From Paeniglutamicibacter kerguelensis (GTDB lineage: Bacteria > Actinomycetota > Actinomycetes > Actinomycetales > Micrococcaceae), in assembly GCF_017876535.1 (NCBI RefSeq), contig NZ_JAGIOF010000004.1, forward strand, positions 124,001 through 188,000: 64,000 bases of DNA. Reading direction: 5' to 3'. Shown here in pieces: positions 38,844 through 42,223 of the stretch. Every line of letters starts with the position of its first letter. The first letter of the stretch is position 1. The position numbers and the translations under genes were made by a program. The notes under the pieces were generated by a model. It was not told the origin of the DNA. It saw only the letters and a list, made by a program, of their open reading frames with translations, and did not search any database.

Positions 38844-39467
38844 TTAGATGCTGCTGGTTGCGATGCCTGCGTCGAGACGCGGCAGGCGGTCGAACCAAGG
38901 GTTTTCGCCCGGGGTGCCGACGTTGACGATCAGGAACGAGTGGTGTGCCTTGCCGGCGTTTACCACGGTGTCCACACCGGCAGGGTTGAAGCCGCCCATG
39001 GGACCAGCGTGCAGGCCTGCAGCGCGAACGGCCATGATGAAGTATCCGGCCTGCATCCAGGCGTTGTTCTTGGCGATTTCGGCGCGCATGACGGCGTCCT
39101 CATCGAACATCGCCTTGCGTTCGGGTGCGTGCGGGAAGAACTCCGAGAACTGCTCGTGCCAGTCGGCGTCGTAGCTCAAGACGGCCAGTGAGGGTGCGGC
39201 CAGCGACTTGGCGCGGTTGCCTTCCATCATGTGTGCGACAACTGCCTCGCGGGCTTCCTGGCTCTTGACCCAGGTGATGCGCAGCGGCTGGTTGTTCATC
39301 ATGGTCGGGCCCATCTTGGTGAGCTCGTAGATGGTGTCCAGTGCTTCATCCGAAACGGCTTCGTCGGAGAAGGTGTTTGCCGTGCGCGCCTCGAGGAAAA
39401 GCTTGTCGGCGGTTTCGCTGTCAATCGCCAGGTTCGAGTAAATGGATTCGGTGGTTTCCAGGCTCAC
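38844..39467 (-). CDS. Nitroreductase family protein, RutE/HadB-like
   Basis: A 207-residue FMN-dependent oxidoreductase. ARTANTFSDEAVSDEAL, GPTMMNNQPLRITWV, YDADWHEQF and GPMGGFNPAGVD match the malonic-semialdehyde-reductase/nitroreductase (RutE, HadB) subgroup. It would reduce a small aldehyde, quinone or nitro compound with NAD(P)H. AAGGAG with a 7-nt spacer fixes the GTG start at 39467. Its leader region holds the unusual four-way structure at 39606-39764, about 140 nt upstream, raising the possibility that the structure is in its 5' UTR. Confidence 0.88.
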   Translation of the reverse strand: MSLETTESIYSNLAIDSETADKLFLEARTANTFSDEAVSDEALDTIYELTKMGPTMMNNQPLRITWVKSQEAREAVVAHMMEGNRAKSLAAPSLAVLSYDADWHEQFSEFFPHAPERKAMFDEDAVMRAEIAKNNAWMQAGYFIMAVRAAGLHAGPMGGFNPAGVDTVVNAGKAHHSFLIVNVGTPGENPWFDRLPRLDAGIATSSI

Positions 39468-39605
39468 GGAAAATCTCCTTGTGATTCGTTTGGGGTTGCC
39501 CTTATGTGAACCGGTGCAACCGCCTGAATCATTCCCATTGGCCTGTGTGATACCGAACACTGCGGCCCGCCGCGGCAGCCGGCGGAGCCTACTCGTTAAA
39601 GTCAT

Positions 39606-39764
39606 CAGCACGCCTGACGACGCCGTGGGTTGCTGCACTTGGGGTTGCAGCAACCCGAGGAATGTTTCGTAAAAGTACTGCTTGGGGGAAAGTACTTTTA
39701 CTTATTCCTGGGTGCGAACCAGCTTGGGGGAATGGTTCGCAGTTTGGCGTCGTCTGGCGTGCTG
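39606..39764 (-). ncRNA. Four-way hairpin element with identical C-rich loops (candidate sRNA or leader RNA)
   Basis: An outer stem (39606-39624 with 39746-39764, 18 of 19 paired) encloses three hairpins: 39627-39656 (11-bp stem), 39669-39701 (11-bp stem, extended by AGGAAT 39658-39663 with ATTCCT 39704-39709) and 39713-39741 (9-bp stem). Stem sequences differ, but the last two loops are the identical 11-mer GCTTGGGGGAA, and the first is CTTGGGGT. On the minus strand the loops read TTCCCCCAAGC, a form able to pair with ribosome-binding sites. Minus strand is favoured by a TTGCGA-N17-TTTATC promoter-like pair ending just before 39764. The rest of the gap 39468-39902 holds no convincing gene. 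Confidence 0.5.
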
Positions 39765-39902
39765 GATAAAAAGTCTTTGAACGCCACTCGCAAAACGTTC
39801 TTCAGACTTTCTGTGACCAACCGTTCCGTCGATCTACATATAACTTTATAGGCCTCCCCAATGTTGCACATTGGACTTTTGACCATAGTTACTGAGGTTG
39901 CC

Positions 39903-41168
39903 TCAGCTGTTTTCCGTGTTCGGGGTCACTTCCCCGAGCCGGGTACGTTCGAAATCGATGATATCGGCCGGCAGCTCGGCACGAACGACCCAGTCACCGC
40001 GCTGACGCCTGGCCGTGAGCGTTCCGCCAAAGGCGGCCATTCTGTCCGTCATTCCAACGATTCCCGAGCTGTGTTCGCTCCGCGCGAGGCTTTCATAGTC
40101 CATATTTCTCGGAAGCTTATTGGCCACCTCGAGCCATACGCGGCCGTCGTCAATCAGTGCTTCAATCCGGCACACCGAATCGCGATCCGCGTGCTTGACG
40201 ATATTGGTCGTTGATTCCTGAAGGATCCGGTAAAGAGCGGCCTGCGCCGACTGCGGCAGCCCTGAAAGCCGCGGGTCTGCCGCCGTTTTCGTCGGATGCC
40301 CGAGATCCACAAGACGTTCCGCGAAAATTTCGACGCCAATAAGGATTTCAAGGCTGCTAGCCGCATTGCCGGCAGAATCGACAAGGGAACCGTCCACCCG
40401 CGTCGCAGAACCGTCGCTGCGCAAAACATTGAGCATGACGCGGAGATCTTGGAGCGCTTCCTTGGAAGTAGCTCCGATGACTTTCAGTGCGGCCTGGGCC
40501 ACCGCTGGGTCCCCGGAGAATTCAGCCGCCTTGGCCTGCATGGAGATGACAGTAATGTCATGCGCGACGATATCGTGAAGATCCCGCGCGATCGCTTTGC
40601 GTTCAGCCTCCACGGCTTCTTGTTGCTTGCGGCGGAGTTCAGCCATGCGCGCCCTATCGGCTTCGCGTTGGGCTTGAATCTTCCGGGAAAAGTAAGCAAT
40701 CGCGTAGGCAAGAGCGAGCAAAGGCAGAATCAGGGCCAAAAAACCTATGTCCAGTGGGCGAACGACGGCGATCGACCCGACCCACACCACGGTCACACCG
40801 AAGAAACGCATAGAGTACTTGCGGTCTTCGGCAAGCGTAATCATGCCGACCAGGAATGGCACGACAAAGAGCGCAAAAAGATACTGGCCCGCCCAAACAC
40901 TTGCGACCATGGCAATCATGGAGACGATCACAGCATAAGTGGTTCGAGTCCAGAGCAAACCCAGAGCGGCAACAAACAAAGCACTCACCAACACGGAGAG
41001 GCCAGCGCGTTGCGCCACCACAGGATCGGTTGCGCCCAAGAAAGTTAGAACATCGGTGCCCAAAAGGAGCACGGCAATGCCGCTCGCGACCAAGAGGATC
41101 TTTCGTCCAATCGGATACGACGAAGCGGCTTCTGCAGGACCAGATAAGAAGGGCAACGAAAGTTTCAC
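39903..41168 (-). CDS. Six-TM sensor histidine kinase (NarL/LuxR-type partner)
   Basis: A 421-residue membrane kinase. Six hydrophobic helices (about 22-42, 57-75, 79-95, 98-113, 124-138, 141-160) have short loops, so no large extracellular domain exists; this layout is common in kinases sensing peptides or membrane state. The HisKA_3 box ARDLHDIVAH puts the phosphorylated His at 198; the N-box is ESTTNIVKHAD, and the C-terminal G-box is GIVGMTDRM. The GTG at 41168 was chosen with AGAGGGG adjacent. It lies 57 nt downstream of the secreted-peptide gene on the same strand and opposite the response regulator at 41552, its obvious partner. Confidence 0.88.
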   Translation of the reverse strand: MKLSLPFLSGPAEAASSYPIGRKILLVASGIAVLLLGTDVLTFLGATDPVVAQRAGLSVLVSALFVAALGLLWTRTTYAVIVSMIAMVASVWAGQYLFALFVVPFLVGMITLAEDRKYSMRFFGVTVVWVGSIAVVRPLDIGFLALILPLLALAYAIAYFSRKIQAQREADRARMAELRRKQQEAVEAERKAIARDLHDIVAHDITVISMQAKAAEFSGDPAVAQAALKVIGATSKEALQDLRVMLNVLRSDGSATRVDGSLVDSAGNAASSLEILIGVEIFAERLVDLGHPTKTAADPRLSGLPQSAQAALYRILQESTTNIVKHADRDSVCRIEALIDDGRVWLEVANKLPRNMDYESLARSEHSSGIVGMTDRMAAFGGTLTARRQRGDWVVRAELPADIIDFERTRLGEVTPNTENS

Positions 41169-41225
41169 CCCTCTATTGTCTATGGGTTGGAGGCCCAAGT
41201 CAGCGGGCCCCCAACCCAAGGAGAT

Positions 41226-41438
41226 TTAGCGGCACAAGGCCCCAAGATTGCGGCAAACCCAGTCATTGAATGCATCAGACATTCCGAGAGTGCTAACACC
41301 TGGATTGTTGGCGCCCTGCGAGATCGGGCCGGAAACCACCAAATTGGAGGTCGGAGCGGCCTGGGCAGGGATAGCTGCTGGGATCAGCAGGGCAGCGGAC
41401 ATGGCGACAGTGGCGAATATGCGAGTTTTATGCGTCAT
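41226..41438 (-). CDS. Small secreted peptide precursor next to a two-component system
   Basis: A 70-residue precursor. Basic N-terminus (MTHKTR), hydrophobic core and an AIPAQA-A cut predict Sec export with a mature form of about 43 residues. The tail has Cys62 and Cys69 eight residues apart in VCRNLGALCR at the very C-terminus, suited to a small disulfide ring. I recognise no family. Position between kinase and regulator, in an apparent operon with the kinase, suggests a signal or ligand for it. ATGs at 41447 and 41438 are both possible. It could also be a structural or antimicrobial peptide. Confidence 0.6.
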   Translation of the reverse strand: MTHKTRIFATVAMSAALLIPAAIPAQAAPTSNLVVSGPISQGANNPGVSTLGMSDAFNDWVCRNLGALCR

Positions 41439-41475
41439 AGACCTCATTGTTGCATCTAACACCCGAAGTCAATAG

Positions 41476-41487
41476 GTACTTTTGTAC
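41476..41487. promoter_or_regulatory. GTACTTTTGTAC site in divergent promoter
   Basis: Perfect GTAC-N4-GTAC repeat between the peptide/kinase operon and the response-regulator gene. Its reverse GTACAAAAGTAC matches ATACAAAAGTAC at 5947-5958 upstream of the secreted subtilase in 11 of 12 positions. A response-regulator binding site is a plausible reading. Confidence 0.35.
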
Positions 41488-41551
41488 ACATTTTGATGTC
41501 ATTTTCGCGCCCACGCGGATGAAGCTTCCATTCGTCACTAGACTCAAAAAT

Positions 41552-42223
41552 GTGACGGATATTCAAGTTCTAGTTGTCGACAACGAACCATTGATGCGCC
41601 AAGCCTTCAAGATCATTCTCGACGCAGCACCGGGATTCCACTGGATGGGCGAAGCCACCAATGGAATCGAAGCCGTGAATTTCTGTGCTGGGAATACGCC
41701 GGATGTCATCCTCATGGATATGCAAATGCCGCGAATGAACGGTGTCGAAGCAACGGAAATCATCACCACGAATTACCCCGGTATCGGCGTATTGGCGGTT
41801 ACTGCGTTCTCCTCCGAGGAATACCTCGTCCCCGCCCTGCGCGCCGGCGCCGCCGGTTACATGGTCAAAGACTCAGAACCCGCCGAACTTCTTGCCGCCG
41901 TCAAGGCAGTCTTTGATGGCAGTGCGGCCATTTCCCCCTCCGTCTCACAAGACCTCATCAAGGCCATCCGCGCAGCGCACGAGGTAAAGACCTCCGCTCC
42001 GGGAGGAATGCCGCCCATCGCCTTATCCGAACGCGAGCTTGAGGTACTCCGCCTTCTGGCCCGAGGACGAAACAATCCGGAAATCGCGGCAGAACTGCAC
42101 GTTGCTGAAACCACTGTCAAGGCACACCTCAGTCGCATCATGGCCAAGTTCGGGGTTCGTGACAGAGTGCAAACGCTGATTCGGGCAACTCAATTCGGCC
42201 TTGTTGAACTGAGCATGGATTAA
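41552..42223 (+). CDS. LuxR/NarL-family response regulator
   Basis: A 223-residue regulator. The receiver domain has VVDNEP at the acidic pocket and Asp56 (ILMDMQMP) as phosphoacceptor, with GYMVKDSE holding the conserved Lys. The C-terminal LuxR helix-turn-helix reads LSERELEVLRLLARGRNNPE then AELHVAETTVKAHLSRIMAK. A TAGACT -10 box at 41539-41544 lies 7 nt upstream of the GTG at 41552, supporting a leaderless start; an ATG at 41519 in frame is less likely. It is divergent from the peptide-kinase operon. Confidence 0.92.
   Translation: MTDIQVLVVDNEPLMRQAFKIILDAAPGFHWMGEATNGIEAVNFCAGNTPDVILMDMQMPRMNGVEATEIITTNYPGIGVLAVTAFSSEEYLVPALRAGAAGYMVKDSEPAELLAAVKAVFDGSAAISPSVSQDLIKAIRAAHEVKTSAPGGMPPIALSERELEVLRLLARGRNNPEIAAELHVAETTVKAHLSRIMAKFGVRDRVQTLIRATQFGLVELSMD

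Follow-up and report, generated by a model that had tools for sequence, protein, structure and literature searches.

The minus strand of a locus in Paeniglutamicibacter kerguelensis very probably encodes a real and conserved structured RNA, here called element A, whose core lies at positions 39606-39765 of the window, which is the whole stretch of 64,000 nucleotides that was analysed. The core is a closed four-way junction that presents three C-rich hairpin loops with the motif CCCC(C)AAG, and it is very probable that the minus strand is read as RNA, because the stems covary while these loops stay the same. Element A is rather probably a trans-acting sRNA that uses its C-rich loops, and it may be the output RNA of the peptide, kinase and regulator system encoded beside it.

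Architecture and covariation of element A

The four-way junction can be read directly from the sequence and is borne out by folding and by the alignment of relatives. On the minus strand, the 5' arm of the outer stem (39746-39764) pairs with the 3' arm (39606-39624) through 18 pairs and one T-T mismatch, and a short conserved TTTAA-like tract follows the 3' arm in the alignment. Hairpin 1 (39713-39741) has a stem of 9 bp and the loop TTCCCCCAAGC at 39722-39732, which reads GCTTGGGGGAA on the plus strand. Hairpin 2 (39669-39701) has a stem of 11 bp and the same loop at 39680-39690 (GCTTGGGGGAA on the plus strand), and stands on a lower helix of 6 bp (39658-39663/39704-39709). Hairpin 3 (39627-39656) has a stem of 11 bp and the loop ACCCCAAG at 39638-39645, CTTGGGGT on the plus strand. 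Inside one outer stem, the three loops carry 5, 5 and 4 C. Over 39590-39780, the folding energy is -88.6 kcal/mol for the minus strand (z -11.4) and -93.2 kcal/mol for the plus strand (z -7.3), values that none of 200 shuffles reaches on either strand. The likely minus-strand transcript of 255 nt, which extends the core upstream and adds two hairpins, has a z of -13.0. The original prediction had described a 19-nt outer stem with one mismatch around three hairpins, and both the coordinates and the folding scores agree with it.

Element A was found by BLAST in 14 of the 15 genomes of the genus, with 74-83% identity in the 13 relatives. The genus sample consists of Paeniglutamicibacter genomes, among them P. 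antarcticus, P. gangotriensis and P. sulfureus, and some are titled Arthrobacter sp. When the 51-pair structure is laid over 12 distinct sequences, 94.3% of the cells are standard pairs, against 30-46% in slid controls, a comparison which favours the structure over its slid versions since it was partly derived from the same 12 sequences. Changes on both sides occur in 22 of the 51 pairs, and none of 500 shuffles reaches any of the pairing and covariation values. The loop cores, which are CCCCCAAG, CCCCCAAG and CCCCAAG, do not vary among the 12 sequences, and the third loop has a fifth C in two loci (L011 and L014). On the minus strand, 34 G-U cells stand against 17 A-C cells, an excess that favours this strand as the RNA. 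The idea that the stems change around fixed loops had been put forward from the window sequence, and the lack of homologues with compensatory stem changes had been named as what would speak against it; such homologues exist, and they keep the CCCC(C)AAG loops.

A covariance model of the core, run with Infernal's stricter filters over 395 family genomes, matches the own genus only, in 14 genomes. The own genome of 4.8 Mb holds a single copy, as do 13 of the 14 matching genomes in all, and the remaining one, G012, has a second and partly decayed copy. This second copy (L039 1501-1661) has no relative of the kinase or of the nitroreductase within 1.5 kb on either side.

Genomic setting and the upstream region

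Element A lies between two genes of its own strand. Downstream is a nitroreductase-family gene (38844-39470, minus strand), and upstream is a gene for a HisKA_3 histidine kinase (39903-41219, minus strand). The same order on the same strand was found in all ten neighbourhoods fetched, so that the kinase and nitroreductase setting of the original prediction recurs in the relatives. The fifteenth genome of the genus, G002, has a diverged junction behind the kinase, in which the outer stem differs and two hairpins carry CCCCCAAG.

Upstream of the kinase, a secreted-type precursor peptide is encoded at 41226-41438 on the minus strand, which ends in the C-terminal tail AFNDWVCRNLGALCR with two Cys in the window. 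A relative of this peptide precedes the kinase in all 11 sequences examined, and the peptide is a candidate for the signal of the adjacent two-component system. A LuxR/NarL-type response regulator is divergent from the kinase and peptide genes (listed open reading frame 41447-42223, plus strand; its true start may be further in).

Two further hairpins stand between the kinase gene and the core, on the minus strand. The one next to the core (39769-39811) has a 12-nt loop, TTTTGCGAGTGG, at 39784-39795, which is invariant on a stem that varies with its pairing mostly kept. In a pattern search, TTTTGCGAGTGGC was found in 14 of 15 genomes of the own genus, in 18 of 18 genomes of genus g23 and in 4 of 362 others; the reversed control matches about 50 of 395 genomes, and at this rate the four matches outside the two genera are background. 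Conserved across two genera, the TTTTGCGAGTGG loop likely has a function of its own. The other hairpin (39815-39834), which would be the first of the transcript, reads GATCGAC..GGTTGGTC in the window and ATCGGC..GCCGAT in most relatives. Ahead of it, a -10-like element, TATAAAGT, was recognised by eye at 39843-39850 (minus strand; GATAGAGT and similar in relatives), and a conserved box, ATGGTCAAAAGTCCAATGTG, lies at 39867-39886 on the same strand, just past the kinase stop codon and 16 nt ahead of the -10-like element. The box is a putative promoter or activator site. It was also considered as the binding site of the regulator, a reading set aside since the similar stretch upstream of the response regulator may be the -10 of that gene.

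A consensus scan found no sigma-70-like promoter in 39450-39960, and promoter scans near element A and near RNA B of the own genome (see below) found none. The terminator scan gave one hit near each of the two, neither of which corresponds to the hairpins of the elements themselves. A promoter-like pair had been placed just before the outer stem in the original prediction; the scan did not recover it, and the conserved block at that place is the invariant loop TTTTGCGAGTGG of another hairpin.

Genus g23 is Glutamicibacter, as two of its loci (L386 and L387) are identical over 600 bases to the named Glutamicibacter loci L061 and L062. At its kinase-nitroreductase locus the loop of the upstream hairpin is kept, and the next long helix carries the loop CCCCCAT on changing stems in all ten loci read. 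At the locus of element A, the C-run is therefore conserved across two genera and the AAG is not.

Sister RNAs and the relation to 6C RNA

Second, weak hits of the core model in six genomes led to another RNA, called RNA B, whose three hairpins have stems unrelated to those of element A and the same CCCC(C)AAG loops. DNA similarity places it in 14 of the 15 genus genomes, with the own copy at G000:C1:2619404-2619515 and an example at L142 1510-1603 (minus strand). The gene rplJ lies 3' of RNA B in all 14 loci, and rplA lies 5' of it in 10 of the 14, those whose fetched stretch extends as far as rplA; in the own genome a longer stretch has rplA 1.7 kb before RNA B. The own RNA B has a fold z of -6.7 and a T-run after its last hairpin, which the terminator scan did not list. 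G002 carries at the rplA-rplJ locus a diverged form with two CCCCCAAG hairpins.

A hairpin model, R2, was built from A and B, and it scored 150 first-look candidates per genome in a first run and 19 in a later run, so hairpins may be missed. In the own genome, where 150 of 1,120 candidates were scored, R2 found the four hairpins with five C that A and B contain and one marginal match (E 1.25). In other genomes of the genus, it found further loci among the candidates scored. Inspection by eye of 20 fetched places revealed a third RNA, C, whose loops contain 5, 5 and 4 C, in genomes G003, G012 and G013 (L235 481-600, L243 502-640 and L242), and a similar array in G001 (L230). By eye, L235 and L243 have a GC-rich hairpin and a T-run after RNA C, which indicates that it is the C-rich strand that is transcribed at these loci. 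Single CCCCCAAG hairpins of one kind occur in four genus genomes (L231, L238, L239, L245) and of another kind likewise in four (L232, L233, L234, L237); they could be chance, coding sequence, terminators or binding sites.

Outside the genus, the triple-loop pattern as such is background, as it matches 32 of 380 genomes and its reversed control matches about 27 of 395, with 0 of 15 in the genus. By eye, most of the matches away from rplJ resemble coding repeats. It is the position upstream of rplJ alone that makes nine outside cases meaningful. Nine of 18 Glutamicibacter (g23) genomes match the pattern, eight of them upstream of rplJ and, in seven, with rplA on the far side; the match of the remaining one, G036, is elsewhere, yet this genome likewise has three C-rich loops ahead of rplJ. 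The ninth case is one genome of genus g30, which likewise matches upstream of rplJ. In 22 of 30 genera the upstream stretch has no rplA within 1.5 kb, which leaves the absence of RNA B there uncertain. Two Glutamicibacter loci also show a sub-threshold L10 leader upstream of rplJ (L280 1681-1840 and L300 2070-2220, with 35.4 and 34.8 bits for a cut-off of 44).

6C RNA, which is widespread in actinobacteria and whose choice of partners by its C-rich loops is still open, is the closest known type. Like element A it presents hairpins with C-rich loops, and the two have CCCCCAAG in common. Element A also resembles the C-rich-loop sRNAs at large, since its C-runs are exposed in loops on conserved and covarying stems. 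6C RNA is described with two stem-loops, each of about six or more C (PMC4046766, PMC8388888), whereas the closed junction of element A holds three loops with 4-5 C each. No family of Rfam 15 matches element A at its cut-off. The 6C model RF01066, whose gathering cut-off is 47 bits, matches nothing in the window, does not match element A up to E 10 in the four of 14 element A loci that were scanned, and matches none of the 15 genomes of the own genus (150 candidates scored in each). Among 295 family genomes the same model matches 25, of which 16 are above the cut-off and which belong to genera g6 (21), g11 (3) and g10 (1). The hairpin loop of seven of the eight 6C loci read contains CCCCCAAG; all seven are from g6, and six of them are nearly identical. 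The likeness of the minus-strand loops to 6C RNA, which had been noted at the outset, extends in this way to Rfam 6C loci of other genera.

The seven g6 loci are without rplA, rplJ and rplL in the fetched stretch. The eighth locus read, in G024 of g11, lies between rplA and rplJ, a position equivalent to that of RNA B, and element A itself is not at a known 6C locus. RF01066 matches one of 12 RNA B loci, below the cut-off (L135, 35.2 bits, E 0.53), and gives 34.3 bits (E 0.25) for the g30 form (L253). RNA B may be a drifted 6C RNA, judging by its position and its loop. Since element A fails the 6C model, it is called here a new variant of C-rich-loop sRNA and not a 6C member, and by its loop it looks like a relative or an analogue of 6C RNA. 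Among the papers listed in literature searches, none describes such an RNA in Paeniglutamicibacter or Glutamicibacter.

Possible modes of action

On the preferred reading, the minus strand would encode a structured sRNA of about 160 nt (the core) to 255 nt (with the two upstream hairpins), which would display CCCC(C)AAG in the loops of three hairpins and act in trans like the 6C and B11 RNAs. B11, which is a 6C RNA, is described as having two C-rich loops, either of which can repress a target, and which act on a G-tract in an mRNA leader (PMC10470900). The exposed loops of element A would in a comparable manner pair with G-rich stretches of other RNAs. We infer the transcription of element A, the pairing step and the control by the response regulator. 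An RNA output of a peptide-signal system is a natural hypothesis here because of the peptide tail, the divergent LuxR regulator, and the box and -10-like element that the RNA has of its own. RNAIII, the output RNA of agr in staphylococci, is a regulatory RNA with C-rich loops which also stands beside a peptide-signal two-component system, and element A may play such a part in peptide/histidine-kinase signalling.

The loop complement was sought near the starts of genes called by a simple script, based on length, GC at third positions and a Shine-Dalgarno-like choice of start, over 1.66 Mb of the 4.8 Mb genome. Among the 1,296 genes so called, a set which may miss real starts and is biased in its start choice, CTTGGGG occurs once in -30..+9 (99th of 105 permutations, permutation mean 4.98), and it also occurs once near the starts of a smaller set of 319 genes. 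The stretch from -100 to -30 is unremarkable. Loop duplexes at -12 kcal/mol or better number 37 regions, against 34-132 for 12 shuffled loops. No conserved target emerged. The peptide gene was considered as a local target and set aside, as CTTGGGG is present in two of 11 sequences (the window and L022), TTTGGGG in one (L023) and neither in eight. As the loop complements show no enrichment around start codons, nothing here supports a broad masking of ribosome-binding sites, and the original proposal of pairing with G-rich ribosome-binding sites finds no backing near called starts in this third of the genome. A few specific targets, or a protein that binds the loops, could stand in place of broad masking.

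Such a protein would recognise the CCCC(C)AAG loops and be titrated by RNAs A, B and C, much as CsrB-type RNAs titrate CsrA through a repeated GGA loop motif. Element A also repeats one motif over several hairpins as the CsrB/RsmZ-type sponges do, with CCCC(C)AAG in place of GGA. Several points suit a sponge: over 7-8 nt, the AAG included, the loop stays the same in RNAs whose stems are unrelated, each RNA has several loops, base-pairing targets are not enriched, and some genomes have lone hairpins with this loop at other places. We nevertheless hold it to be unlikely, as the frequency of CCCCAAG itself around called starts is only mildly raised (8 against a permutation mean of 4.24 in -30..+9, and 9 against 10.92 in -100..-30) and the Glutamicibacter loop at the element A locus is CCCCCAT.

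Element A could also act in cis, as a leader or attenuator of the nitroreductase gene or as a structure in the 3' UTR of the operon that encodes the kinase, and its constant place between both genes on their strand in the ten neighbourhoods speaks for such a role. This is improbable for several reasons: the closed junction ends 136 nt ahead of the nitroreductase gene, a promoter-like box follows the kinase stop codon, the second copy of G012 has no kinase or nitroreductase relative in the 1.5 kb to each side, and the three-loop design recurs between rplA and rplJ and beside other genes, which also weakens the leader option of the original prediction.

A mobile palindrome, which had likewise been proposed, or another DNA-level hairpin (REP-like or attC-like) would explain the long inverted repeats and the one extra, partly decayed copy in G012, but is very improbable given the single copies in the own genome and in 13 of the 14 matching genomes, the constant locus, covariation with more G-U than A-C, no match in plasmids, a 22-nt match at E 0.1 as the sole one in 16 mycobacteriophages, and no dispersed near-identical copies seen with target-site duplications. 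Pairing with the anticodon loop of tRNA-Pro(GGG), which was considered since CTTGGGG resembles proline anticodon loops, is scarcely credible, as the loop of the own tRNA reads CTGGGGG, one T short of a full-length match.

It is conceivable, as a tentative proposal, that in this clade of Micrococcaceae RNAs A, B and C, which bear the same loop three times on unrelated stems, form one regulatory network, either as sponges of a loop-binding protein or as RNAIII-like effectors, one of which would serve a two-component system with a peptide signal; in that case 6C RNA would form a single branch within a larger class that is defined by its loop and replaces its stems freely. The data suggest that RNAs at equivalent positions in sister genera escape the 6C covariance model. 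With stems replaced, the design present at new loci and one loop of 7-8 nt nearly fixed, the motif is precise and testable. Several natural sister RNAs of soil bacteria share the design, and element A is a candidate for connecting a peptide signal with a C-rich RNA.
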